Shown one piece after another: positions 2-63,959 of a DNA stretch of 64,000 nt. Below the pieces are notes generated by a model. The model made no database searches, was not told the DNA's origin, and saw only the letters and a list, made by a program, of their open reading frames with translations. Each line of letters starts with the position of its first letter. Positions within the stretch are counted from its first letter, which is position 1. The position numbers and the translations under genes were made by a program. The DNA comes from Halichondria panicea (Eukaryota > Porifera > Demospongiae > Suberitida > Halichondriidae): NCBI RefSeq assembly GCF_963675165.1, contig NC_087387.1:4490990-4554989 (forward strand), written 5' to 3'.

Positions 2-2116
2 GTTAAGACTGGTACAGCTGCAATAGACCCCCAATACACGTACGTTGCAAACGGTTCCCTGGGTATTACCGGACTGGGAGGACAAAATGTTACACTTCAA
101 TTAGATGTAGCTGGCAATCGAGATTGGCGTATAAAAGTTGAACTGGTTATTGAGGAATGTCCTATTGGGTACATAGCACAGAACGTCTTTGTCAACATAT
201 CATCCAACGAAACAGACTCGATCAAAGAGACTAAATGCGAATGTATTGGCGGAAACGAATTGTACACATTCGGAGGAAACTTGATTTGTAATAAAGTGGA
301 TATGACATCGAAAATTCATAATGGTTTCTGGATTGGACATATAGAAAACGTACCAGGTATTTCAAACGACACATTATATATGGGTATGTTACTACTAAAG
401 AACATTTCAGAGAGTTATTTAACCCTCAATCATTCTAACGATACGCAATGCAGGTACTTGAATCGTACAGGTACGCTGTGTGGTAAATGTTTAGAGGGTT
501 ATTCCGTTGCAGTGAATACTTACTCCTACGATTGTATTTTATGCAATAACCACACGAACCTTGTCCAAAATGCCTTGGTATACGTTGCGCTGACCTACTT
601 GCCTTACTTGATTTTGTTTCTACTAATAATCTTCCTTAACATCAATTTAATGAGTGGGTCTTTATCTGGGTTTATCCTCTATGCCCAGTTAATCGGTTCG
701 GGCGTACTAGAGCTAACAATCGATCGCCTTCCTAGCCAAAAATATGCTTACTACCTTCAGAGAGTGTATCGGATGTCGTATGGTGTTTTCAATCTCAATT
801 CCTTCTCCGGGATATTGTCTCCGTTTTGTGTTAGCGAAGATTCTAACACTCTAGGAGTGATTAGCTTAGACTACGGTGTCGCTATTTTCCCACTAGTAGT
901 GATAATCGTTATTTGGCTAGTCGTAAGTCTAGTGGACAGGTGTAACTTGCGGAGGGCAAAAAATCGATCTCTACAAACTTTTGCCAGTGTACAAGGGAAT
1001 AGTGAATCAAGTACCAGTCGAAAAATTGGAGAATCAATTAAGAAAATGTTCTCTCGCAATTTTATTCACGCTTTTGTTGGATTCATATATCTATCTTACA
1101 CCAAGATGAGCCTTGCCGCCACTCTCACCTTGACAACAGTTGGAGTATTCAATCAAAATGGAACCTACGTCACCTCTACACGCCTGATCTACTACGCTAG
1201 TCAGTATTACTTCGGACAAAATGAATATCTCTATCCGTACGGTGTAATAGCAATTACTGTGTACATTATCGCTGTTGCACTGCCCTTCGCTTTGTTAGGT
1301 GGTCTAGATTTCGTCAATTGGCTCACTGGTCTGGAAAAGTGTGTTCTGATGAGAAAATTATGGCCGAGTCTAACGATCAACTCTTTCTTAGATGCGATGC
1401 GTGATTGTTACCGGCCCAATCGACGTTACTTTGCAGGGATCTACTTTCTCTTTCGACTTGTAATGCTAATGATTTTCGCATTCTCCTCCAAACTACTCAC
1501 ACTAGTCTTGTGCCAGCTCCTGTTAATTTTCCTAATGGTTGTCGTGGTTGCAATAATGCTACCTTATAAAGAGATGCTTCACAATTTTATCGATATTCTA
1601 CTCCTCCTCAACATGGCAGCAATTACCCTCATTTCAATCTATCTCTACTCCGCTCCTTCCGACAATGGTAGTACCTACCCCTTTGAATTATACATTTTTG
1701 GTACCATTTTAATCTGGTTGCCAATGGTATATCTACTTATCTATATCTGCTCCTTTTGTCTACGAAAAACAAAAGCGTATAAAACGGCCACAGAGAAGTT
1801 TCTGGCCCACCGTGCAGTTCTGTTCTTATACAAACATTTCTCAAATTTGGAGCTTTACAGAGAGATACAACAGCAAAGCATGGTTCGTATCGTCGCCAAT
1901 GCTAGGGCCAATGGCCACGACAACAATGGAGTGTACGGACATATAACTGATAATGAGGCAGATATGACTGAATCAATGATGCTGTTAAATAGAGCTGGAG
2001 AGCGTAATTTATACCGACCAGCAAATCCGAAAATAACTAAGTCTACTGTGTCTGTGGTTCATGACACGAGTGGTATGGCTGATGTAAAGGGCCGGTATGG
2101 GATCAACGATACATAG
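2..2116 (+). CDS. 3' part of Cys-rich multi-pass membrane protein (beta-helix receptor family), partial
   Basis: The reading frame is open from the first bases of the window to the TGA/TAG-type stop at 2114-2116, so the gene starts upstream and no start codon is claimed. The N-terminal visible part is extracellular and Cys-rich, with many N-x-S/T sites and the motif C-x-Y-L-N-R-T-G-T-L-C-G-K-C near 450-490. It is followed by about eight hydrophobic segments between 570 and 1760 and a hydrophilic cytoplasmic tail. The same C-x(5)-R-x-G-x-L-C-G-x-C module followed by membrane segments occurs in the beta-helix gene at 43.4-48.0 kb, so I infer that the missing upstream part is a repeat-rich ectodomain. 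No biochemical role is known to me; a surface receptor or adhesin is inference. No lesion is seen in the visible part. Confidence 0.8.
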   Translation, partial: VKTGTAAIDPQYTYVANGSLGITGLGGQNVTLQLDVAGNRDWRIKVELVIEECPIGYIAQNVFVNISSNETDSIKETKCECIGGNELYTFGGNLICNKVDMTSKIHNGFWIGHIENVPGISNDTLYMGMLLLKNISESYLTLNHSNDTQCRYLNRTGTLCGKCLEGYSVAVNTYSYDCILCNNHTNLVQNALVYVALTYLPYLILFLLIIFLNINLMSGSLSGFILYAQLIGSGVLELTIDRLPSQKYAYYLQRVYRMSYGVFNLNSFSGILSPFCVSEDSNTLGVISLDYGVAIFPLVVIIVIWLVVSLVDRCNLRRAKNRSLQTFASVQGNSESSTSRKIGESIKKMFSRNFIHAFVGFIYLSYTKMSLAATLTLTTVGVFNQNGTYVTSTRLIYYASQYYFGQNEYLYPYGVIAITVYIIAVALPFALLGGLDFVNWLTGLEKCVLMRKLWPSLTINSFLDAMRDCYRPNRRYFAGIYFLFRLVMLMIFAFSSKLLTLVLCQLLLIFLMVVVVAIMLPYKEMLHNFIDILLLLNMAAITLISIYLYSAPSDNGSTYPFELYIFGTILIWLPMVYLLIYICSFCLRKTKAYKTATEKFLAHRAVLFLYKHFSNLELYREIQQQSMVRIVANARANGHDNNGVYGHITDNEADMTESMMLLNRAGERNLYRPANPKITKSTVSVVHDTSGMADVKGRYGINDT

Positions 2117-3107: not shown

Positions 3108-6100
3108 ATGGCCTCATGCCATTCTGTGTACCTGCAAGCCTTTACTGAGTTGTATCCAGATTTGATAGGAAATTTGAAGTCTGGAGTTTTTGATATAACT
3201 GATCAAGCATATTCGAAGTTTCTTATTTCCATTGATGTTAAGGACGAGATCACAAGTAGAACATCTGGTAAAACAGAAACAGAACGAACAAGAATTCTTC
3301 TAGACGCTATACAAGCCAAAATTTCAGAATCTGATGTTTATTACCAATTCCTTGAAATTTTACAGGAAGACAAAGCCTTCAATGAAGTTGCTTGCAAATT
3401 TGAAGCCAAAGTCCAGGCACAAGAAGAACAGAAAGGTGCATGAGTTCTACTCAACGAAAGGCATGCCTGTATTCTTATATATACTCTCTCCCGTGATATC
3501 GTACAATTGCCGGACGTATAATGGGAATTATTTTGTGTGGCCATTTGGTGACTTGCATGCGTCTGCTGCTTAGCTCTTTAATATTGACGGTTGGTGGTAT
3601 ATAATTTTGGTGATATTCGTACCAACTCGACAATTACAATGCTCGTCAAATTTTCCCGTTCTCCGGTATAACTTTGATTTGGTTGGACATTCTTAACCAG
3701 CATATTTAACCAGCATAATTTTATAATCCAATCGCACACAGGCAGCCTATCTTCTGCTATCGAGACACCTGGTCAAAATCGACACGTAAATCGAGAGTAC
3801 TCTATTCTTGTTCACAAGAAATGCCAATGGAATCGATACCTACAAGATTCTTACACTATGAACAAGTTTATCAGGTTGCTTAAAAGGAATGGTTTACTGA
3901 CCAAAAATCAGAGCAGGCGCAGCAGGAAGAGTTTTGAGCAATTATTTGATTGTATGCTGTCCCTTGTGAAAAAAGACCCCTTCAAATTGAGATCTTTCAC
4001 TGAACTCTTGGAAACGATTACCAGTGAGCAACTAGAGCTGGAGTCTGCAGTACGTTGTGAAACAGAACTGGCTGATCAATATACAGGTATTTAGTTCCTA
4101 TAACCATACATAATTATAATTTTTTTATAATAATTATAGAGCCTAATGGATATCACATACACCAGGCCAGAAACAATATCAAGAATAAAACTTACTGGAA
4201 AACACTGGGTAAGCTGACTTTATCTGTATAAATTCCAGTGCACTAATTATTACATTATGAGATTTATCATTTTTACTGCCAATGCTATATAGCATGCAGC
4301 TACAGTGTCTGTGAAAGTACAATTATACCCGAAAAAGTCGAGTACATAGTATAGTACTTGACAGTGTTATGTGAAGGTATCATTTTGTAGCTGCATTGTC
4401 TTATTATCAAATTACAGTTCTTAATAAAAAATAAAACTCTCTCACATGCGGCTATGATTATAGTAACCGGTGTCACTAATAATTATGATCTGCTCTATAA
4501 TCTGTCCTGTCTCATTTGAATCTATAGGTACAGTATTCACGGTGATACTATTCTTTGCAATACTCATAGTGTACGTGTTTGTCCCAAAGAACAGCAACGC
4601 TGGCAATGACAATGGATTCATATTACCAAATAGTACGGATCGGGTAGATAAAGGTAGTATTGATGTTTATAAGCAAACTATGAGTCACAATCTACCACGT
4701 AGAAGTAGCCCCTTCTTTGGCCGAGAAAATAATTTATCTAGATTGACAGAGATCTTGCTGAAAGGAAATTGTATTATAAATATCAATGGTCCACCAGCAT
4801 TCGGGAAATCATCTCTAGCTGTCAAACTAGGTTGAAACTTAATCGAAAACCACTCGGGAGTGTTTAAAGAAGTGCGCTATATTGATGTTGCCACAACAAG
4901 AATGTCGATATATTTGTGCTCACATCACTTCGAAAGTAAAAGAAGCACAATAAACCCAGGCAGCAAGGAGCCTAACTCAGTTGTAGCTTTGAATGATTCA
5001 GAATCGTCAGGCAGTTCTGGATCGGACACCGAACCGGACATATGCGAGTGGTCCAAAACTCGCACGTACAGAAGTTTATTAATACTAGACAATTGTGATT
5101 TTGTTTTACATGAAAGTCGACGTCAGGAATTCATTGATTTTATCAACAGCCAGTTGGATAGGTGTCATTATGGGAAGCTAAGCTTGGTCATAACCTCTCA
5201 GGAGCAATTGAACTTTTTGGATAACTGTTTTCAGAACTTTCCGATTGCTGAACTAGATCCAACGGATTCTGTGAACTTGCTACGACACCATATTCCAAAT
5301 TTGAATGATGAAATGGCTCAACAATTTTCTTCACTCGTTGGACACTGTCCACTTGCGCTGAAAGTTATTGAAAGACTTTTGGCAGCTAGAGGAATTGAAA
5401 ATATGGAGACCTTACTTAACAGTTTAAAGGAAAAGGCGTCTACCATCTCTAATAGAATAACAGATAATAAAGAACGTTTTAGGACGATAATGGACGTTGC
5501 ACATTCAAATCTTGATATTGAAAATCAAGAATGCAGTCTCATTGTCAGTTTCTTCCAAAGTTCTTTCGATTCGGAAATCGGAACAACAATCCTGTCTGGT
5601 ATTGTCAATCCGGACTGTGTTCAAAATATTGTTCAAAAGTCGTTTTTAGAAGAATATTTTGTTGCTAGTAAAACTCGATACACTATGCATAAACTTGTTC
5701 GGAGCTATTTTCAGGAGGTACACATCAATGATTCGTTTTATGTGCAAAACCGAAAATTATTTATTCAAAACTTTATTGCCAACTATTCTGACTACCTCAT
5801 TAGCATTATGAAAGATCGCTACAAATTCAAGAACATAACTGATGAAGAAAGCCACAGGTTCTTTTATCTGGAACATAAAAATATCAAGTATTTTTCCCAG
5901 GAATTGGTAATTAGTGCAATTAAAAAAATTAAACTCAATGACAACCATTTGATAGCATTGGCCATGCTTATCATTGAAAATATCTCAAATGGTTGGTTTG
6001 AGAAAGAGGTAGCATTTAAGTATTATTTCACTGATCACAACTTATATTGGAAACTCTGCCATTTCTCGTCAGTAGACATTTGTTCGCAGTTTATGTGGAA

Positions 6101-7052
6101 ACTACTTGTTTATAAAGGTATTCCACATTGTACTAGATATTTTGAAAACGATCTCTCTCCTGTATTGTATTTTCGAATTTTAAACTTCTTTTTAGACGAG
6201 AAACCTGATTGTGAAATATTTGCTTGTAAAAACTTAACATTTCTAACGCATAGAGGTACGTTATCTCTGATTGCGGAGCAAGTAGAGAAATCAGGAAATG
6301 GTGAAGAAAAGCATTTACTGTCGATATTAGAAACTGTACTTTTGTGCTGTACGAATTTGTGGGTCAGAAACTCAATACAAGTCATAAAGTATGCATATTC
6401 TTTAATACTGAGCGCACTACCCATGTTCATGTCATCATGTGTGATATTCTTAACAATGTGGTGGTTCAAAGCAGTAACTTGTTCCAGTTTCAAGGAAAGC
6501 GTAACGTTTTTGAAAAATCATTTTATGTTGTGCTGTTTTCTCAACTGGCTGGAACATACTTGCGTGCCAAATCAAATCAATTTTTGTGTTTTAGATATCT
6601 TCATAATTTTACTATTATTATTACTAATTGTTATCATCGTAATGGTTAAGAATCTAAGGCCAAAATGCATACACCACAGGAATGTGTATACGAAATGTCT
6701 TACAAATGTTTTAGTGACGATAGATGTGCTTGTAATTGGAGCATATGCTAGAATTTTGTATTTTTTTTACTGTCACTTACTTTTTTCAATGCTTGTGCAC
6801 TGCTTTGTGATATTTGTATCCAAGAAAAAAAGAGTGAAATATACTAAAGATTCTGACAAACATTCAGAGCAGCTGCTTGATGATAGTGATTTATTAGATT
6901 ATGATTTTCTTGGATTCGTAGTAGTACTGACGATTGTTATTGCACTACTTATTGCTTTTGTGTTACCGTACTATGCGATTAATGCTATATTCTATTCGAT
7001 TAGTTGGCTTAGTAATCCAACAACTGTTTCTGACATAGGAGTCTTAAATTGA
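3108..7052 (+). CDS. Death-fold/NB-ARC ATPase with several membrane segments, interrupted by in-frame TGA
   Basis: The four-exon model is 3108-3435, 3742-4086, 4140-4208 and 4528-7052. All introns are GT-AG and all junctions phase 1, which supports it strongly. Exon 1 (about 109 residues) is a helical, CARD-like death-fold module. Exon 2 is a second basic helical module that I cannot assign. Exon 4 opens with a membrane helix, then an NB-ARC-type ATPase: P-loop G-P-P-A-F-G-K-S-S at 4789-4815, Walker B-like L-L-I-L-D-N near 5080, C-P-L-A-L-K (GxPLA equivalent) near 5350, and the winged-helix M-H-K-L-V motif near 5690. The last ~250 residues contain four or five strongly hydrophobic segments instead of LRR or WD repeats. 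The ATG at 3108 is the first in-frame ATG. A TGA at 4833-4835, just after the P-loop, splits the frame (codon ~350 of 1088), so the gene is either a recent pseudogene, a null allele or a sequence error. An intracellular sensor role is inferred from the family. Confidence 0.72.
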
Positions 7053-7186: not shown

Positions 7187-7252
7187 AAAAGTCCACTACA
7201 AAGAGGAGACAAGAGAATAGGATGGGTCCAATGAGTGCTCCCTATACATATG
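7187..7252 (-). pseudogene. TMEM245 exon-10 fragment, 3' half
   Basis: This stretch matches the second half of the TMEM245 last exon (compare 30088-30223), ending with the codons for V-V-D-F and then a stop. Its other half is at 8219-8264. The two are separated by the foldback element at 7253-8218. It is a stray, non-functional copy about 14 kb from the nearest cassette. Confidence 0.75.
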
Positions 7253-8218
7253 GTGAGCCTTTTGTTTCAAAATGGCGATACAAAATACCATGTGTTGGTG
7301 TCCCAAAAATCAACTCGATTTGTTTTATCAACTCGATTTTATCGACTTTATCTGGTAGGGATCGACTCGATGTGTTATATCAACTCGATTTTATCTAGGT
7401 AAGGATCGACTCGATGTGTTTATCAACTCGATTTTATCTAGGTAAGGATCGACTCGATGTGTTTTATCAACTCGATTTTATCCAGGTAAGGATCGACTCG
7501 ATGTGTTTTATCAACTCGATTTTATCCAGGTAAGGATCGACTCGATGTGTTTTATCAACTCGATTTCGAGAGGATCGACTCGATTCCAGGCCGCTGGGGG
7601 AAAAGGCGAGTTTTGAGGGCGGCTTGATATCTAGGCTATCTATGGCTGTACTCACAAAGGCGCTAGGCTCAGACAAGGCACTGAGACTCTTGAGGCCACA
7701 GGCAGGCCTACAGCAGGTCAGAGTAGCTGACCTTCCAGGTACGTCTGCAGAAGGTCACAGCAGCTTACTTGTGCTAGATCACAGTAAATTAAATCACTAA
7801 ATGCTTGTCTACTTGACTCTTGAGTTCATGAAACATAGCAAGTAGCTACTGTGTGATCTCAGGCTCAGAAGGTCCCCATCTGAGCTACTCTGAGCTGCTG
7901 TAGGCGTGCATGTGGCCTCAAGAGTCTCAGTGCAGTGCCCCTTGTCTGAGCCTAGCGCCTTTGTTGCAAGAGTATAGCCTCGATATCAAGCCGCCCTCGA
8001 AACTCGCTTTTTTCCCCCAGCGGCCTGGAATCGAGTTGATAAAACACATCGAGTCGATCCTTACCTGGATAAAATCGAGTTGATAAAACACATCGAGTCG
8101 ATCCCTACCAGATAAAGTCGATAAAATCGAGTTGATAAAACAAATCGAGTTGATTTTTGGGACACCAACACATGGTATTTTGTATCGCCATTTTGAAACA
8201 AAAGGCTCACTATATATA
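7253..8218. mobile_element. Foldback (long inverted repeat) transposon, non-autonomous
   Basis: The outer arms 7258-7345 and 8127-8213 are near-perfect reverse complements; inner arms 7560-7730 and 7862-8040 are also inverted copies. The loop is about 7745-7860. The left arm carries an expanded minisatellite (see 7370-7560), so the arms differ in length. No transposase reading frame is present. The insertion splits a TMEM245 exon-10 copy, which defines its outer edges; no clear target duplication is visible. Confidence 0.8.
7370..7560. repeat. Minisatellite, unit about 40-44 bp, in foldback left arm
   Basis: Four to five tandem copies of a unit containing GATCGACTCGATGTGTT and TCAACTCGATTTTATC. 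The right arm of the foldback element has only about one and a half units. Confidence 0.75.
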
Positions 8219-8264
8219 CAGACCAGCAAAGTAGATACCTCCAGCAATGGCCAGACCAGTCAGG
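8219..8264 (-). pseudogene. TMEM245 exon-10 fragment, 5' half
   Basis: Reads (minus strand) as the start of the TMEM245 last exon ([16 protein letters not shown]) and continues at 7252 across the foldback insertion. The acceptor site and first codons are lost. Confidence 0.75.
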
Positions 8265-17527: not shown

Positions 17528-20080
17528 TTATACTGAGCTCATGGGCATGAATTCTTCAATAATGCTGGTTCTGGATCGGATCCAATGAAAGGGTTTTGCC
17601 TTATTCATGTTCGTCCAATGTGTACGATTACACAAATCACCAGACGTGATCCTCAGAGTTCTCGAAGCGAAACTAGTGAAGACTTCAGTGATAGTCCTGG
17701 CTTCATTTGAATCACGTGAATACTTTTCATAGTCCTTCTTGTCATTTTTATGATCTTCTTTATACAATGTGATACATTTAATTGTACCAACAACAATGGC
17801 TTGTTTGGGGATAACAGTGATGTTACTGAAGCAGCTCAAAATTAGAGGATCAGAAAATGCTTCGAAATGAAGGTGAAGATGTAGGCGTTGTCTAGACCTA
17901 TCAGCTTTTGACCATTCAACCAAAATCAAAGCCATCGGAGTTCCAGAAAGTTGGCGCGTCCCATCTTTATCAAAAATTTTCAACCGAAAGCACAGTATCT
18001 TGATTGACCCATCTGTAAAGGCTTGCTTCATTTCCTCGATGTCCTCTAGAGTACCACCTCGTGCTGCTCCAATGCTCTTGTTTACATGATCAACACAAAA
18101 ACGTAGAAAGAAATCAGGCTGGCTGAAAAAACGAAAAGTATTGCCATCTCGTATTATCTCACGCACTCCGTTAATATCCGGACCCTGAAATGGAATACCA
18201 GGATCACAATACAGCGAGGGATTTTGCTTCAGTCCTATGTCATCGATCTGTTCATGCAAGTCACCCAAATCAGCAGCAGGAGACTTCAAAGCTTGAATGT
18301 CCTCAAGATTGGTTTTCTGGAGCTCAATCCACAATGGTATGAACAGGTTACCATAAGAGACTTCGTCACCACTGCAAGCAGTTTGAACGATTATTTTCGT
18401 GTACTCTAGTAGACTTTTGTTGCGTTCGAAGTAAGTAGCCCATTGGCCAGAATAGCAGGCATCAACGATAATAATCACTAGGCTTTTGAATTGTTTACGA
18501 TCCCGTTCCTTTAGCTGATCGAGGACCCATTTTGGAGACAATAGACCGGACTGAAATGCAATCACATCCCCAGCAGATGCGTCCCTAGTCACGGTATGGG
18601 GCGTGTACTCCTTACCCATCATTGTGCTACAATCTTTTAAATCCCAACGCAGGTACTTCCTGTTGAGAGTTTGCACCTCTCCAACAGGAATAGGATTGTT
18701 TTGTAACTTCGTGGCAGTTTCGGAGGACAAACCGTGGCCTGTAAGGCAAAGAACTGAAACAATTTTATTTATTCGGGCTGGGTTTTCAGGATTGCCAACG
18801 AGAAAATGCCTACATTGCTCTACAAATGATTCGTCCACTGCGTCCATGAAACCAAATTTAGTGTATGACCAATGCTCCCTATGATCCTTTGTAGGAAACA
18901 TATCACCAACTCTTTTTGCATAGAATTCAAACGAATCGAAATCATCCATCATTTGGGTATTGTCTTCAAATTTAGTAGACTCATATTTTCTCTTTGCTAG
19001 AGTGACTAGATCTTGATCTTGCAAATCTAAACAATGTAATAAGGGTCCTGATTTCCACATTGCGTATAATAGGTAGTTTGACACACAATTGAAACTGAAT
19101 TTACCAAGGATGCATGTCAATTTTCATAATTATATACGTGCATGTATACTGTACAATGTATGTTATATAAATGTACAGATAATTGCAACTACATGTACAT
19201 GTAGAATACACTTAATTACAGCATTGATCTATCGAACGTACTTTCAGGAACACCAAGAATATTGCACAGCTCAAGACGGCTTCCTCTCCTAATCATGTCA
19301 TCAACAAATGATTTCGCATTAAGACCGGAGTCAATAGAGCATGGGAATGCCAATGCTAGCACCTCAATCTGAATTGGAGCAAGCAACAGCATCATATACC
19401 GTTAATACTCAGAACGTCATGCAGAACATCATTATGAGCAACGGGTAACCTTATACATAGTTATATTGTAGTATAGTTAGTTAGCGCTAATAAAATTAAA
19501 ATTTCCATGACAAACAAGCACTTGGTCTATAATAATTGCATGAAAAACAAATTAGCTTAATTACCTATACAACACATTGTTACAGTAGGAGAGTCTACAG
19601 TATAAAGTTATACCGGAAGAGAGGGTGTGCATGTGCATGCATGGATCCAATATCATCCACCGCACTCAAATTAACCACGAAATATCCTATCCTAGATGTG
19701 ATTACAAATGATTATAATTATGTACTGTATATAGCAGATAATTTTCATGGGCGAGCTGACCTTCACAAAAATGTTCCCCAATTTTTTTCGTTACGAAAAT
19801 CTCCTTAAAGCAAAATGTTTACCCCACGAAAATTACCCCCGCTATACGGTAGTACGTTGTGTCTGTTTGATAATGTAACTGAATTTCAGCCTCGAGCAGT
19901 GCCTTTGGGTTTATAAATTCCGACAAAAACAGTGCCATGTGCACTGCATGCATGCCCAATACAATAAGTTCTATGTAAAGGTTATCCTCAAGGCTTCTAG
20001 AAATTGTGACTGCAAGTATTAACCTTATTATCAACGAGTTGAGCTTCATCATCACTGCCCTGATCATCTGCACTCTCCAT
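17528..20080 (-). CDS. Caspase-fold (peptidase C14-like) protein
   Basis: The three-exon model is 20080-20024 (19 codons, acidic start M-E-S-A-D-D-Q), 19368-19242 and 19047-17528, about 567 residues; the exon 3 acceptor is the least certain point. The catalytic dyad of caspase-fold peptidases is visible: His in L-C-L-T-G-H-G near 18735 and Cys in I-I-I-V-D-A-C-Y-S-G-Q near 18455, each at the end of a hydrophobic strand. The D-A-C-Y-S-G form is that of metacaspase/paracaspase-like members rather than the QACRG of classical caspases. The distance between His and Cys is about 93 residues, longer than usual. The ~235 residues after the catalytic region are not recognised. No prodomain is obvious, though exon 2 is helical. 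Activity and substrate are unknown. Confidence 0.65.
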
Positions 20081-43410: not shown

Positions 43411-46400
43411 TCATACTTCATCATTGTTTATGGGGGCAATTTCTGTGTGTGTAACAATGGGATCACGGTTGACGCTCGTAGAGGGAGGGGCCGGGGTGTA
43501 GTCCTCTGTGGTGAGGGGGGCTAGTTCATCCAAGTAGGATAGTCTCAGCTGGTCAGACCTCGTGGCTGATCTGATGATGGGAGGAGTGATGTAACGATCA
43601 GGGTCAGCTTCTTCCATGGCTCTATCAGTGTAAGGTTGGTCCACGGGTACGTGTCTTTGCTCATAGTTGTCGACTACTTCAAGAAATCAATCGTCATCGT
43701 TTATTTGCTGATAATTTTCCCGGCTATTGTTAGCTTGTTGGAGTCTCATGTCTGCAACTCCAGCTCTTAAGTTCCTTATGGTGTCCTCTATCTTCAGCCA
43801 TGTATTGAGCTTCTTGAGCACGAATTGGTAGAAATGGTAGCAAAGGGTTGTCACAAACAGAATGAATGATATAGCTATCGAAGTATTGGCTAGTGCTGAC
43901 TGATTTTTCTTTGTATTTTTGACATAGAAGGTGCCAAATGCAAAAATAGCAACATTGAGTAGATAGAGAGTTTCAAGGGAACCACAGAACTTATTTTTAT
44001 AAGAACGATTATTCAGTAGTTTCCATCCAATCAGTCCAACTGATAGAACCCCAGATGATAGAATAGGGAGAGACGTGTCTGGAGCCATGGCAACTACTAG
44101 ATTATGAGTAATCAGAGCAAAGAGGAGCAGTCCCACCCAATAGCGATGCTTGGGAGTGAATGGAGCATGGTATGCATCCATGAAGCCAATGTATTTTGTG
44201 TTCTCAGTCCATTTAAAAACCTTTGAACAGCGAGGAAACCATTGTCCAAAAACGAGCAATACAGTGAACAATCCACCGGCAATGAGAATTATGGCGGCTG
44301 CAACAAACCGAGGGATGTGATTGATAGTGAAGTATTTCACATTGCTATTGTACAGCCAAACTATTTCGTTTGTATCATCAGGATAATCTAAGACCCTGTG
44401 TTGTAGTGCAGCAATGATAAAACGCAAGAATTTGGAATAAGAGAGTAGCTAGGACAAGTGTGCCTAGGGCAGCAACAGGATTCCTGTTGGAGAGGAGCTT
44501 TGCAAATGAGTTAAAGTACTTGCTCAAAATGATTACAAGAAACATTAGAAGAAACACGTAAGCTGGGAAGACAAGTTGAAGGAGTACTTTTGCTTGAGAG
44601 TTCATTCCATTGTAAAAGCATGTTTCGATTCCCATGTCAAGATTCACCCATGATACAAAAACTGTTAAAAAGTTGTTTAAATTAGGAAAGAAAATTGCTG
44701 TATTAGCAGCTACTATGTTGGCGTAGAAAATGAGGCCATGAATATTTCCAGTTGCTATAGTGATGTTGAGCACGAGAATTAAAGCAACTAGCAATATGCC
44801 AGCCAGCGCAAATGGAATTAGTAGAAGAAGGTAAAGATCAGAGCATTCTATACAGTTTGACGTGGCCAACACAAGACTTAGTCCTGGTTTACATTCTCCA
44901 CACAATACCCCACTTCGATTGTAGGCACACTGTTCGTCAGGGTTGCTTAGACTGATGTTGACTGGTTTTTCTACGCAATAGTCAAATGTACAGTTACTAA
45001 TAACATACGTTCCATTGGTGGTATTTATGAATTCTATCCATATGTTGGTATTACTTTCAAGCGTTATGGTACCATTTTTCTCAGAACAGTTTGTTATCGG
45101 ATATCCTTGTTGCAAGAATGGATCACAGTCACACTTGCATTCAGTATCGGATCGAGTTGGTTTGAGTCCAATTGGGCATGTGCAGGGCAGAAAAGAAATA
45201 TTGATAAGTTGTCTTGAAATTCCCAAATTAATGCATGGACCTTCAGCATACAGTTCCACTTGAGCAGAGTTGTCTTGTGAGAATACATTGTACTCTAATT
45301 CTGTGCACTGATTGCCAACTGTTTGTTTTTCCTGTCCTTCGTTGAGACGATCAAATCCATTCTCACTGACAACAGAACTGCGAATTGTGGCATTCATTGG
45401 ATTTCCAACTTGGTCAACAGCCATAATGCTGATTTTAAACAAGTGTCCCTTTCTAGTAGAAATACTGCCATTATTACAAAAGATTACTTTAACAGGTCTC
45501 AAAGAAATTGATAACTCGCTGGGGGATTTTACGATATTATTTATGTAATTCAATCCAGGTCCATTTGAAGAAATGTGATATTCAGCAAATTTACTTACTG
45601 TACACCTGTCCAATAGACCTCCGTAGATGTCTGCTCCTGACTGGGTAGCTGTGTTGTTAGTCATGAATGTGTTGAAATAGTTTGGATTATTGCCTATCCC
45701 ATACAGGTTAATAGTTTGAATAAAACAATCAACAAAAATGGTTTGTCTGGATTCTGTGCCCTCTCCTCTGCAGGTACCACTCTCAGTGTCATCCGCTACG
45801 AATATCCCCCCTCCATGCTGTGCCGAGTTGTTGTTAATCATTAACTTGACATACAATAATTGATAGTTAGAACTATTAGCCAGATATTCGAAGACTTCTT
45901 TAAACAGGTATAGTTTTGAACTTTGCTGTAGGTACACTCCACCTCCTTTAGCTTTAGCTGTGTTTGAGTCAATGTTGACGTATGATTGCGTTAGTTTAAT
46001 GGTTGTAGCTGCTGCATAAATACCTCCACCATTATTCTCTGCAATATTGTCAACAATCTCACTTTGTTTATTTGATCGGAATTCAACTTTACTGGAATAT
46101 GCATAAATTCCTCCACCATCCTGGTGTGCTGTGTTGTGATAGATCTCTATTGGCTTGGTTATAAAGAGTGTACTCTCTCCTAGAAATATCCCTCCTCCAG
46201 AGGTAGCTGTGTTGTTGGTTATGATTGTTCTTTCTGTGTTAATGTACATTTCACTCTGGACTGCTTTAATGGCTCCACCCAACACACCACCACGATTGTT
46301 ACTGAGTCTTGTAGGTCCGTTAAACTTGACTCGACTATTGAAAATATCAATCGCTCCACCATGGTCAGCACTGTTATTTGTCAACATGCTGTCAGAGAAG

Positions 46401-47964
46401 GACACATTACTTAAGTAAACACCAATCGCTCCACCAGAGTCAGCTCTGTTGTTTGTCAGTGTACTGTTGGAGATTGACGCACTGCTTGAGGAAATATAAA
46501 TTGTTCCACCAATGTCAGCACTATTGTTTGTCAGCACACTGTTGGTGATGGACACCACACTGTTTGAGGAAACGTAAATCGCTCCACTACTGCTGTTAGC
46601 ACCGTTGTTTGCTAGCATACTGTTGAAGATGGACACGCTGCTTGAGGAAATATAAATCGCTCCACCATAGTCAGCTCTGTTGTTTGTTAGCGTACTGCCA
46701 GAGATGGAAACACTACCTCTGTAAACATGAATAACTCCACCACTATGGTCAGCTATGTTGTTTGTCAGTGTACTGCAGGAGATGGATACACTACTTGAGA
46801 AAACATAAATTGTTCCACCAAAGACAGCTCTGTTGTTTGTCAGCACACTGTTGGTGATGGACACCACACTGCTTGAAGAAATGTAAATCGCTCCACCACT
46901 ACTGTTAGCACCGTTGTTTGCTAGCACACTGTTAGATATGGACACACTGCTTGAGGAAGAAGCATAAATCGCTCCACCATAGTCAGCTCTGTTGTTTATC
47001 AGTGTACTGTCAGAGATGGATACACTGCCTGAGGAAACATAAATCGCTCCACCACCATGGTCAGCTATGTTGTTTGTCAGTGTACTGCTGGAGATGGATA
47101 CACTACTTGAGGAAACACTAATCGTTCCACCTAACTCGTAAGCACCATTGTTTTTCAGCACACTGTCGGAGATGGACACACTGCCAATACCAATCGCTCC
47201 ACCAAACTGAAAAGCTTTGTTATTTATAAAGTTACACCAAGTGATAACTACAGTACCAGATACCATTTCTACTGCTCTTCCACTCTCAGTACTCTTGTAG
47301 TTGAACTCTGTGTTGTTGATCAGTGCGTTTTTTGATTGAATGTCAACCACACCTCCATCATTTCTAGTGAACATACTATTTTTTATGTGCACATTATCAG
47401 CCTCAACATGCAGTGCCTGACCAGTGTTGTTCACAAATACGATGCATTCAATTTTTGTGGTATGAGTATTAGCAATTTTAACTATGTGGGTTTCCGCCTG
47501 ATTGAGTAATTCAAAGTTCATAAAGTAGCAGTTGTTGATATAGACATCGTGCACATCGTCAATGATCAAGCCTTGATGTGAGTTTAGTGGTCCATAATTT
47601 GCTCCAACGAAACTCAAGTTTTTAATAATCGTTTTGGTAATACTAATGAAACGTATTTCGCCATTGCTATAGAATCTCACAACAGCTGTACTTTTGTTCT
47701 GACTGGTGATATGTACATGTGAAAAATTACGAATCAATAACTGCTCAGTTAACACATGATCTCCAGGTAAAAAGCTCAAGGTGAGAATATCTCCTCCAGA
47801 TAACAAGTCTGTTTGAACAAGCTGCTCCAAAGTAAAACAAGTTCCATTTCCATAGTTATTACTGCAAAAGTCGGTTGAATCCACTGGCACAATGTGATAG
47901 TGCTCACTCCAGCAGCTAGAGTAAATAGCAGTACTAACCAACTGAGAATATTTCTAGACAGCAT
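43411..47964 (-). CDS. Beta-helix (Pmp-like repeat) multi-pass membrane protein, frame-disrupted
   Basis: The ATG at 47964 begins a signal peptide (M-L-S-R-N-I-L-S-W-L-V-L-L-F-T-L-A-A-G). The frame changes near 47905, then a 1.2-kb-residue-class ectodomain is open to 44378. About 12-14 tandem ~20-residue repeats with G-G-A-I-Y and L-T-N-N motifs (46.2-47.2 kb) are the right-handed beta-helix repeats seen in Chlamydia-type polymorphic membrane proteins. A Cys-rich stalk with C-x-Y-N-R-S-G-V-L-C-G-E-C near 44.9 kb and membrane segments follow. A one-base shift near 44436 moves the frame into 43687-44427, which continues the membrane region. A TGA at 43687-43689 is followed by an in-frame extension to 43411 rich in Pro/Thr/Asp. 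A surface receptor or adhesin role is inferred. Paralogue of the gene at 2-2116. Confidence 0.75.
46380..47205 (-). repeat. Coding tandem repeat of ~66-69 bp beta-helix units
   Basis: About twelve copies of a unit encoding G-G-A-I-Y-V/I-S-S-S-S-V-S-I-S-x-S-x-L-T-N-N-x-A. Several neighbours differ by only a few bases, and the pairs around 46550 and 46870 look like a higher-order duplication. Confidence 0.85.
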
Positions 47965-61600: not shown

Positions 61601-63959
61601 CCATTGAGTCTCAAGTACGTCTAGCTCAATAGGATCCCACCGCTGCTACCAAATGTAAAAGATCCACTCTTGACTATTACGTTCTCACAATTCAGTTCAA
61701 CAATCTTCATTTAACAATAATTCAACAGTATCAATTCCACAACATCACAATAACTCTAACATCACAAAACAACTCTACACACTGTCCTTTTTATACACTC
61801 CTGAACACTTTTTGTTTGTCAGGTTAATTCTAAACTAGTTTGATGGCATCTTACTCAGCAGGAGAGAGGGATTAACACCTTGGGTGTACAGTCATACACT
61901 ATTGCACAACAATACCAATATTAACTTCTATAATCAAGCTAAGGCATGCAAGAACCCTTGCCTGAACATAACCTATACAATAACAAACAAATACTACGCA
62001 CAAACAATAACCAACTAAGAAACGTACTAGTCTTTCACATACAAATACAGCACTATTGCATCCAGGTAAGCAGACTCAGAATTACACAAAACGACAGACA
62101 GACATAGCCTCGTTCCCAGGCCTTACTTTTTCTTGCTGTTGTCACTGTTCATCCATAAACACATAGTGAAGCAGCAAAGAATAAAATGGGCGTACAGTTA
62201 AGAAAAAGTAAGGCCTGGTTTGGGAAATCGCGTGATCCACAAGGATTTTTATGAACGTGGGCGATATGTAGCCCACAATCGTGACGTAAGGTATTCTCCC
62301 ACGCATTCAGAGTAAGACTGTACTGTACTATACTGCACTGAGACAACCACCAAGCTGTGCTGCAAGTCAGATCAGAGAACCAGCGTGGCCAGCTCTGGTG
62401 GCAGTAGCTACCTGCTATATGATAATGATGACTAAGCTATTCTACTATAGCATGTAGAAAGACACAAGAAAAGGTAATAGTCTGATAGAATCTAAACACA
62501 CAATCTAGATCATCTAGCTAAGCCTAAGGTATAGCTAGCTATAGTGCTTGCAAACTTCCAGTTCCAAGTCCATGTCCAGCTTGCTGCAGGCAAAGTTTTA
62601 TTAGTCGTAGACCTCTGCGTGGGCAGTCCAACATCTCTAGCTCAGTATGCCCACGCTCATTTTCACCCTTCTACCACCCTTCTACCCTCACGCGACTTCC
62701 CGATACAGGCTCTCCTTTTTCCTAACTCTACGTCTATTTCTTCTTTATTCCTCCAATTAATACCGTATTTTATCTCATTGAACGAATAATACAGTATTTT
62801 ATCTTATTGAACGATTGTGATAAAGAACAGAAAAAGGAGAGCCTGTGTAGAGGCTAAGACAGACAGACAAAATGACCTGCCACTGCTGTAACCCGATTTG
62901 TGCCTCGGCCTCGTGTTAATTTCTTAAGTTTATGTTTACTGAATTTCTCCCCACATGTAGGTTGAGAAATGGGTGAATGATTTTGTGGAGGAGTGCAAGC
63001 TGATGAGCCAGCTCCGTCACCCTAACATAGTACAGTTCCTGGGGGTATGCTATCTCCCTGAAGCCCAACTTCCCGTTCTACTGATGGAAAAGTTACAAAC
63101 CAGCCTCGACAGACTTCTAGAAACCAACCCCAACCTTCCAACCGACCTCAAAGTACACCTTCTGACAGGGACAGGCCAAGGAGTAGTTTTTTTGCACAGC
63201 CATACTCCACCTATTGCGCATCGAGATCTGTCTGCCAAAAACATTCTAGTCGATAATGGCTTCACTGCCAAGATAGCGGACATGGGTGTTTCTAGAATCG
63301 TGAATATTCGGCCTGGCCGGCTAGCTGCCACGATGACTCAAATGCCAGGCACTGGTGTGTACATGCCACCAGAAGTAGCTCAAGAGGAAGGGGTAACACG
63401 ATACAACACTGCTATAGACATCTTCTCCTTTGGTGTAGTATCTCTGTTCACAATGACGCAAACCTTCCCAAAAGATGTCAAACCTGCAACATACTATGAT
63501 CTAGTTACAAGGAAGATAGTTGGCCGATCAGAAATCGAACGCCGTGAAGATTACATTGTGCCAATGAAAGTAGCTCTTGGTGAGACCCACCCCCTAGTCC
63601 TGTTGACCCTTAATTGTCTGCAGTACCGTCCTGAAGATCGACCAACTGCTTTAACAGTGTTGGAACAATTGGTGGAGGTTGCAACAACCCTCCCTCAAAA
63701 CTGCACCCTGACTAAGTTGGAGCTGATTCAACAGGTCGAAAGTAAAGACAATGAGGTCAATAGATTGCAGGCTGAAAATGAAACTCTTCAAGCTGATAAT
63801 CGAGAGCTAATTCACAGACTGGAACAACAGACCACGGAGTTGGAAGCTCAACGTAAGGAAATTGATCGTCTTTTCAGATTAGTGAAGTCTACACAGCCTC
63901 TGGAACAGGGACAGAGAAAAGTGACTGTGGCTCAGCTGAAGGTGAGGCTCATGCAGTGA
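55649..63959 (+). CDS. Tyrosine-kinase-like (TKL) protein kinase with C-terminal coiled coil
   Basis: Exons 55649-55840 (64 codons) and 62961-63959 (332 codons plus stop) join in phase 0 and give 396 residues. Exon 1 carries the glycine loop L-G-T-G-A-Y-G-N-V and the catalytic lysine in A-A-K-K. Exon 2 has helix-C E-E-C-K-L-M-S-Q-L-R-H-P-N-I-V, the catalytic loop A-H-R-D-L-S-A-K-N-I-L-V, D-M-G in place of DFG (63286), and the APE-equivalent M-P-P-E-V. Catalytic Asp and metal-binding Asp are both kept, so it may be active. The last ~100 residues are a heptad-rich coiled coil, likely for dimerisation. There is no signal peptide or membrane helix, so it should be cytoplasmic. Two adjacent ATGs begin the frame. 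The only intron is 7.1 kb and consists almost entirely of nested transposons. Confidence 0.85.
55960..56117 (-). repeat. Dispersed repeat family R, copy 4, left part
   Basis: Matches the copy at 10935-11200 up to CTATCCATGGTACAA, where it is cut by the LTR retrotransposon. The remainder resumes at 62040-62105. Confidence 0.75.
56137..60283. mobile_element. TA-flanked DNA transposon, 4.1 kb, inserted in the 3' LTR
   Basis: Terminal inverted repeats CACAGAGAAAAGAGGTGTGC (left) and CACAGAGAAAAAAGATGTGC (right, reverse complement) sit beside TA at each end. Both subterminal regions (56150-56410 and 60120-60283) are packed with TGTGCTAAA/TTTAGCACA motifs in both orientations, probably transposase-binding sites. 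Removing the element leaves the expected LTR sequence. Two poly-C runs (about 56659 and 57858) lie inside. No transposase frame is evident. Confidence 0.8.
57275..57445 (+). repeat. Dispersed repeat family R, partial copy 5
   Basis: Shares CACTTGGATGCCATGGC, GACAGATTTTCAAATGG and AAAGCTAAGAAGTATAAATT with the copies at 21.9 and 38.5 kb. It lies within the nested DNA transposon. Confidence 0.5.
60700..61367 (-). pseudogene. Retrotransposon Gag remnant (SCAN-like capsid), frame-shifted
   Basis: The first part, 61367-61107, holds an E-A-Y-L-T-T-C-E-R-M-M and W-V-F-K-L-A-P-Q-L-T-G-K capsid motif typical of SCAN-like Gag proteins. The homology continues in other frames at 61224-61030 and 60935-60738 (A-D-D-Y-V-Q-A-R), so at least two frameshifts are present. 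No zinc knuckle is visible. It is not expressed as an intact protein. Confidence 0.75.
62106..62855. mobile_element. Non-autonomous element, AGCCTC-ended, copy 2
   Basis: A 750-bp full-length relative of 11839-12560. It contains about 30 bp near 62270-62310 that the first copy lacks. It sits directly upstream of kinase exon 2, ending about 105 bp before it. Confidence 0.75.

Follow-up and report, generated by a model that had tools for sequence, protein, structure and literature searches.

The 64,000-nucleotide window of the Halichondria panicea genome analyzed here (contig NC_087387.1, positions 4,490,990 to 4,554,989 of the forward strand) carries, at positions 3108–7052 of its plus strand, a four-exon gene that, on balance, we regard as a member of a lineage-expanded family of membrane-anchored STAND receptors, with a putatively cytosolic CARD-like module, an ATPase, a sensor, and a membrane end. 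A preliminary description of this DNA had proposed the order death-fold-like module, membrane helix, NB-ARC with winged helix, and membrane segments. This order, with a CARD-like module and an NB-ARC-type ATPase, is real and recurs with open frames, six open paralogues with the same order being present in the same genome.

The extent of the gene given in that description, 3108–7052, was confirmed by the four-exon model, which runs from the first ATG to the last stop and has three introns, all GT...AG and all in phase 1, the smallest of which is 53 bases. The spliced model comprises 1088 codons and contains one internal stop, a TGA at codon 350. The parts of the model are as follows.

3108–3435, plus strand: exon 1, CARD-like death-fold module (residues 1–109)
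3742–4086, plus strand: exon 2, helical-looking, possibly a second CARD-like half-domain
4140–4208, plus strand: exon 3, basic linker ahead of membrane helix 1 (GT-AG, phase 1)
4528–7052, plus strand: exon 4, membrane helix 1, STAND ATPase, helical region, and C-terminal membrane segments
4833–4835, plus strand: internal TGA (codon 350), shortly after Walker A, the only in-frame internal stop

Among the stretches matched in the family search, the window locus alone contained a stop. The window copy with this TGA is a null allele, a young pseudogene, or an assembly error. Removal of the TGA by splicing was considered, because a GT at 4830 and nearby downstream AGs would allow an in-frame excision of approximately 30–42 bases (judged by eye); it is not favored, since the excised piece would be shorter than any intron of the model and its loss would delete the helix after the P-loop. 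Because the window copy may be dead, the case for a receptor family stands on the open paralogues.

The motif set of STAND/NB-ARC proteins (Walker A, Walker B, GxP, and an MHD-type histidine) is present in an eight-row alignment of the family. Positions in the window gene are listed below; L and C numbers denote loci and contigs of the sponge genome.

4788–4811, plus strand: Walker A, GPPAFGKS, aligned in all eight rows, with E in place of the last G in L033
5076–5099, plus strand: Walker B, LLILDNCD, with DNCD in 8 of 8 rows
5340–5360, plus strand: GxP motif, GHCPLAL, with G, P, L, and A in 8 of 8 rows
5685–5711, plus strand: MHD-type winged-helix motif, MHKLVRSYF, with His in 8 of 8 rows
5727–6389, plus strand: region from the winged helix to the membrane segments, with conserved cysteines 510, 518, 534, 561, and 566

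In Pfam scans, the NB-ARC cut-off (23.5 bits) was exceeded by two paralogues, L027 (28.5) and L042 (23.7); L030 (19.9), L034 (18.6), L033 (15.1), and the first part of L039 (20.0) scored below it, and no NB-ARC match was listed for L018, L036, or L037. NACHT occurred in the family as a secondary match only (L027, 27.2 against a cut-off of 26.7). Among solved structures, AfsR, a STAND regulator, was matched by the family profile at E 1.8e-6 and a STAND protein with TPR at E 0.0019; a profile of four exon-4 rows matched none at E ≤0.01. The assignment of the window protein to the STAND and CARD classes therefore derives from motifs, paralogues, and profiles, not from a Pfam match of its own. The departure from the LRR, WD, or TPR plan that had been claimed for the gene held for the first two, as no LRR or WD40 was found in Pfam scans of the open reading frames (ORFs) of all ten family loci (exons beyond the ORFs were not sought), and held less well for the third: two paralogues on C6 have weak TPR matches between the ATPase and the membrane segments (TPR_12, E 6.9e-5; TPR_7, E 0.01), both below the cut-off.

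The family was delimited by searching the genome with the ATPase part of one paralogue, which gave 13 matches, counted as ten gene loci and one fragment. The loci are distributed over C14 (four), C5 (two), C6 (two), C8 (one), and C11 (one, the window gene). In six paralogues, membrane helix 1, the ATPase, and the C-terminal segments lie in one uninterrupted stop-to-stop frame (L018, 725 amino acids; L030, 863; L034, 857; L036, 820; L037, 788; L027, 1158), so that a separate transcript for the membrane segments is very unlikely. As for the others, L033 is broken, with the E in its Walker A and a frame closed after 585 amino acids, L039 is split over frames, and the ORF of L042 lacks a C-terminal segment. 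In the phylogenetic tree, the window gene and the four C14 genes formed a clade of five (support 96/98). The ratio of nonsynonymous to synonymous substitutions (dN/dS) was 0.47 for L036/L037 and 0.43 for L033/L034, with a synonymous excess in both pairs (P 1.4e-6 and 1.7e-8, respectively); the excess extended to the C-terminal membrane part of L033/L034 (P 1.4e-4, L033 being broken) and was not significant in the last 278 codons of L036/L037 (P 0.09). Judged from these substitutions, selection has kept the family proteins. Along the L036/L037 pair on C5, synonymous divergence declines from 0.56 to less than 0.05, a pattern that gene conversion homogenizing the 3′ part would produce.

At 7 of the 10 loci, the ATPase part is preceded on the same strand by a CARD-like exon. 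A search with the window exon directly matched three of these exons, namely those of the window, L018, and L019 (the exon belonging to L030). The other four (L033, L044, L045, and L046, belonging to L033, L034, L036, and L037) were first recognized by eye; at 15–19% identity to the window exon, they were absent from its search matches, and a profile built without them scored 82.6, 67.1, 37.4, and 39.8 on them, respectively, against a maximum of 18.6 over 20 shuffles each. L039 has a weak Death-like exon (E 0.043), and upstream CARD-like exons were not searched for systematically at L027 and L042. Phase-1 donor-like sites occurred at the end of the CARD exon in 6 of 6 paralogues, and phase-compatible acceptor-like sites occurred before helix 1 at all six exon-4 starts examined, both without a chance control.

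Exon 1 itself gave 11 matches in the genome, including itself (best paralogue, 46%, E 3.8e-17). One relative, L021, came within 0.8 bits of the Pfam CARD cut-off (E 7.6e-5, 23.1 against 23.9 bits), and a 13-row exon-1 profile aligned with the CARD of the genome's own APAF-1-type protein at an hhalign score of 32.2 (E 6.8e-5, probability 63.5%), whereas 40 shuffles reached at most 17.6 and 17 helical controls at most 15.4. In a PDB search with the same profile, CARD chains (ICEBERG, caspase-9) appeared at E 0.5–1.9, the best at E 0.53; the top match was an unrelated designed protein, 5i9d (E 1.7e-6), which was set aside, and a 4-row profile gave nothing meaningful among solved structures. A Death domain in place of CARD was not favored, as the Death-like exon of L039 scored just 9.5 against the exon-1 profile. 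Exon 1 is thus read as a CARD-like, CARD-related module with a putative six-helix fold. Exon 2 found only itself in the genome at E ≤1; its alignment with the CARD-like profile scored 19.1 over 31 columns (E 0.019, probability 2.5%), above all 30 shuffles (maximum 16.7), and its alignment with the APAF-1 CARD scored 15.0, where 30 shuffles reached 14.2. The CARD-like module also occurs outside the family. On C14 (approximately 2.14–2.19 Mb), L021, L022, and L023 have it directly upstream of one kind of P-loop frame, and the one scanned, L023, matched AIG1 (E 3.1e-7). At L020 (5498–6994), the frame that follows the module gave no Pfam match and, judged by eye, contains several hydrophobic stretches; it may encode a further membrane protein using a CARD-like adaptor.

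Membrane segments were called from Kyte-Doolittle (KD) hydropathy (KD ≥1.6 over 19 amino acids), and their spanning of the membrane is a prediction. The segments in the window protein are as follows.

4530–4583, plus strand: membrane helix 1 (residues 248–266, KD 2.74, no charged residue)
6402–6458, plus strand: C-terminal membrane segment 1 (residues 873–891, KD 2.07)
6585–6641, plus strand: C-terminal membrane segment 2 (residues 934–952, KD 3.58)
6699–6755, plus strand: C-terminal membrane segment 3 (residues 972–990, KD 1.62)
6762–6818, plus strand: C-terminal membrane segment 4 (residues 993–1011, KD 2.15)
6909–6965, plus strand: C-terminal membrane segment 5 (residues 1042–1060, KD 3.24)

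The four or five C-terminal segments counted in the preliminary description thus become five at this threshold and perhaps six, given a weak segment at residues 842–860 (KD 1.24) ahead of them. Shuffling the whole protein, which has 6 segments, gave a mean of 2.8 (maximum 7); shuffling the C-terminal part alone, which has 5, gave similar numbers, 3.9 on average (maximum 7). The composition is membrane-like, yet segment counts alone prove little, and recurrence is the better evidence. All ten family loci have a segment with KD ≥1.6 ahead of Walker A (helix 1, KD 2.1–3.0), and nine of them have further segments after the ATPase (in a second frame for L033 and partly for L039), with the caveat that the cut-off also fires inside the ATPase in L033, L036, L037, and L039. 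The number of C-terminal segments varies from 2 to 7 among the family proteins, and the C-terminus of L034 used as a query matched only itself and a near-duplicate in the genome. The same genome, of 131 Mb, contains at least 102 NACHT matches at E ≤0.001 (102 scored of 265 candidates), which is a large NLR expansion; such a content, together with the CARD plus NB-ARC locus described below, suits a sponge. In 12 NACHT loci hand-picked across contigs from these matches, with 86–238 open residues inspected in each, no helix was found upstream of Walker A; the exception, met by another search, is the NACHT-LRR locus L028, which has a helix before NACHT. The hydrophobic helix before Walker A is therefore a mark of the family.

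If the single helix between the CARD-like module and the ATPase spans the membrane, the two lie on opposite sides of it, a consequence that the preliminary description did not raise. N-terminal domains longer than 100 residues without a signal peptide usually remain cytosolic. Charges and cysteines lead us to place, tentatively, the CARD-like module in the cytosol and the ATPase on the non-cytosolic side (lumen or outside). At the end of exon 3, lysine and arginine (K+R) number 4 in the 15 residues before helix 1 and 1 in the 15 residues after it, and the net charge is higher before helix 1 than after it in 7 of 9 proteins (window, L018, L030, L034, L036, L037, and L042). In the C-terminal loops, for which segments were called at KD ≥1.4 and the counts are weak because their parity is sensitive to segment choice, K+R opposite the ATPase and on its side numbered 8:2 in L018, 6:4 in L030, 8:2 in L034, 6:2 in L036, and 5:2 in L037 (5 of 7 proteins), and the sequons in the loops of these five were on the ATPase side only. 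Within the soluble part, 11 of 14 window cysteines are invariant in the five-gene clade, compared with 92 of 564 residues (16%; P 3e-7); one of the 11 belongs to the DNCD of Walker B, leaving ten. The window has a cysteine in all 11 columns that hold one in the four other clade members, and L018 and L030, which are 41% identical, have 11 of 11 aligned cysteines in common. The clade has all of the pairs 130/172, 335/363, and 534/566, and L036, L037, and L027 have none of them; cysteines 130 and 172 are both present in 5 of 8 rows and both absent in the other 3.

4917–4919, plus strand: conserved Cys 130 (exon-4 numbering), candidate partner of Cys 172
5043–5045, plus strand: conserved Cys 172, across a variable insert from Cys 130

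The helix before NACHT in L028 likewise has a basic N-terminal flank (K+R 3 versus 1), which raises the same question of sidedness in a classical NLR.

Gene structure, domain order, family, and conservation are observed, and everything about action is inferred. In STAND proteins, switching is generally the task of the ATPase, sensing that of the C-terminal part, and output that of the N-terminal part. The layout proposed here would be a cytosolic CARD-like adaptor, a membrane helix, an NB-ARC-type ATPase with winged helix, a helical sensor (perhaps TPR in two relatives), and a multi-helix membrane end. Given its Walker A, Walker B, GxP, and MHD-type motifs, the ATPase very probably acts as a nucleotide-gated oligomerization switch. 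The helical region and membrane bundle would, by a modest preference, hold the protein at the membrane and sense a ligand or a membrane change. Oligomerization would probably cluster the CARD-like modules in the cytosol, engaging downstream CARD partners and leading to inflammatory or death signaling; with an output that is CARD-like, the likely action is membrane-tethered oligomerization and CARD recruitment. Since one helix separates the adaptor from the ATPase, the latter may lie on the non-cytosolic side and be stapled by disulfides in the five-gene C11/C14 clade, a step we put forward with some reserve. Taken as a whole, the protein could then be an inside-out STAND receptor, in which a disulfide-stapled lumenal or extracellular ATPase, held by the C-terminal bundle and perhaps nucleotide-gated, signals through the membrane, and this full version we likewise put forward only tentatively.

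Several observations weigh against the receptor reading. When the spliced model was searched with hidden Markov models, as had been suggested, the window protein matched none of the Pfam models NB-ARC, CARD, and Death, its best match being nSTAND1 (E 4.8e-4, 20.3 bits), under the cut-off of 27.1; exon 1 alone had no Pfam CARD or Death match, nor did the CARD-like exons of L018, L019, L033, L044, L045, and L046. The evidence for the family comes from the genome DNA of one species; the 46 genome-contig and 25 viral-contig pattern matches outside this genome included no confirmed relative. Finally, the window copy may make no protein. That the locus is a decaying pseudogene without a role has a nearly even chance of being true: the in-frame TGA directly follows Walker A and L033 is broken too, whereas there is only one internal stop in 1088 codons, the three splice junctions are intact, and all 11 cysteine columns of the clade are kept. 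A decaying window copy would be compatible with the family reading and has no bearing against the six open paralogues. An assembly fusion of unrelated genes, for which nothing but the unusual domain order speaks, is extremely improbable, because the same order occurs on C14, C5, C6, and C11 and in single ORFs at six loci. The preliminary description had placed the effector end in the bilayer, which would make the C-terminal bundle a pore or channel opened by the ATPase. Counts of C-terminal segments that reach seven in a protein (KD ≥1.6) would suit this, and possible pore-forming ends with multiple transmembrane segments are mentioned, in a passage of PMC8195603, for bacterial TRADD-N neighborhoods. 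Against it, the segment number varies, the sequence of the bundle is poorly conserved, and a CARD-like adaptor is already at the N-terminus, so that we consider such an effector unlikely. The effector or adaptor end of STAND proteins is normally the N-terminus, which here is CARD-related, and the poorly conserved C-terminus occupies the sensor position; output most likely comes from the CARD-like module and not from the end in the bilayer.

The alternative to a non-cytosolic ATPase is that helix 1 does not span (as a hairpin or monotopic anchor), that both CARD and ATPase are cytosolic, and that the C-terminal bundle serves as an anchor alone, tethering a scaffold of the inflammasome or apoptosome kind to a membrane. 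To our knowledge, STAND ATPases are otherwise taken as cytosolic, and the biochemistry of the known ones fits this arrangement. The C-terminal loops of the window protein have K+R 14 on the ATPase side versus 2 opposite, a distribution that favors a cytosolic ATPase if the weak segment 842–860 does not span as well, and those of L027 point the same way (3:1). The flanks of helix 1 are reversed in the C6 genes L027 and L039, the charge difference in L018 and L034 amounts to one net unit, and the flank was read across the splice for the window gene only, those of the paralogues being taken from the frame of exon 4, which may be intronic at its start. The cysteine pattern is weakened by the 78% identity of L033 and L034, which brings the five rows nearer to four, by the joint absence of the pairs, which may be one event on one branch, and by a conservation between the clade and the C5 genes that is not significant; moreover, in the C6 pair, whose flanks indicate a cytosolic ATPase, the sharing of cysteines likewise exceeds chance a little (5 of 7, P 0.046). 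N-glycosylation sites were dropped as a sign of an outside ATPase, since 3 to 8 sequons per protein in the ATPase region against shuffle means of 3.7 to 5.8 (no significance test) are no clear excess and are uninformative; of the presumed cytosolic controls, L024 (0 versus 2.1) and L023 (2 versus 4.4) were below the shuffle mean and L026 was near it. On the other side, helix 1 is strongly hydrophobic in all ten loci, and both the cysteine pattern and five of the seven proteins with scored loops point the opposite way. We give the cytosolic arrangement somewhat less than an even chance.

Other features of the window were also recorded. Directly upstream of the gene, a frame at 2–2113 (plus strand, 704 amino acids) lacks a Pfam match at E ≤0.01; by eye, it shows numerous cysteines and a number of hydrophobic stretches. 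Just 3′ of the gene lies a long, imperfect palindrome (7242–8221) with arms (7242–7421 and 8042–8221) that are 97% complementary and an interior of nested repeats of the motif 'TCGACTCGAT/ATCAACTCGAT'; it looks like a foldback or miniature inverted-repeat transposable element (MITE)-type element. Farther away are the following.

17534–19123, minus strand: frame of 530 amino acids with a borderline peptidase C13 (legumain) match (E 6.1e-5, 23.1 bits, cut-off 22.8)
44384–47953, minus strand: frame of 1190 amino acids whose repeats are of the right-handed beta-helix and Chlam_PMP types (E 2e-15 and 5.4e-21) and which matches DUF7630 weakly
62961–63956, plus strand: protein kinase domain (E 6.4e-31)

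Compared with known systems, the family shares with APAF-1/CED-4-type NB-ARC proteins the death-fold module, the NB-ARC-type ATPase, and the winged helix with an MHD-type histidine, and differs in that no WD40 was found and that it has a helix between CARD and ATPase, a multi-helix C-terminus, and conserved cysteines. The genome separately contains a putatively APAF-1-like locus, whose exons include CARD (E 1.9e-14) and NB-ARC, and, on C17, the 1206-amino-acid NACHT-LRR frame L028 (NACHT, E 1.1e-19; LRR_8, E 1.2e-11). In the ORF scans, the family proteins show neither the NACHT plus LRR of bona fide NLRs nor the C-terminal WD40 of APAF-1. AfsR and related bacterial STAND regulators are the closest solved structures by profile (E 1.8e-6), and AfsR-type regulators are cytosolic transcription regulators, unlike the membrane-anchored family described here.

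Membrane-bound NLRs are described, in passages of the respective papers, from anthozoans (PMC5094078) and from the sponge Dysidea avara, with reference to Amphimedon (PMC12909245). These proteins are also STAND-type with transmembrane segments and suggested to be membrane-bound; they are classed as NLRs, combining NACHT with LRR, whereas the present family is NB-ARC-like, lacks LRR, and has a C-terminal bundle. AjNLR-new of a sea cucumber is reported, in passages of PMC13133943, to be a receptor in the membrane whose nucleotide-binding domain is extracellular and whose N-terminal domain is intracellular; it has an Ig domain where we find CARD and NACHT where we find an NB-ARC type, and no C-terminal bundle is mentioned in those passages. 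Placozoan NB-ARC proteins likewise join CARD- or Death-like modules to NB-ARC without LRR, with WD40 or TPR always present and no membrane segments mentioned in passages of PMC6321704. One protein combining CARD, membrane helix, NB-ARC, and C-terminal bundle was not found in the literature searched (titles and abstract openings of the papers listed, mostly open-access) and was absent from the passages of PMC8260672 and PMC11797021. The suggestion of an undescribed receptor type goes too far, as membrane-bound NLRs have already been published (PMC5094078, PMC12909245, PMC13133943); the CARD-NB-ARC membrane design is a variant within that kind. Even with a cytosolic ATPase, it is a membrane-anchored CARD-NB-ARC design that was not found described and whose open paralogues are testable. 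If the proposed topology is true, a nucleotide-switch ATPase would work outside the cytosol and communicate with CARD through the membrane, and the STAND (NLR/APAF-1) and transmembrane-receptor styles of innate sensing would be joined in one protein.

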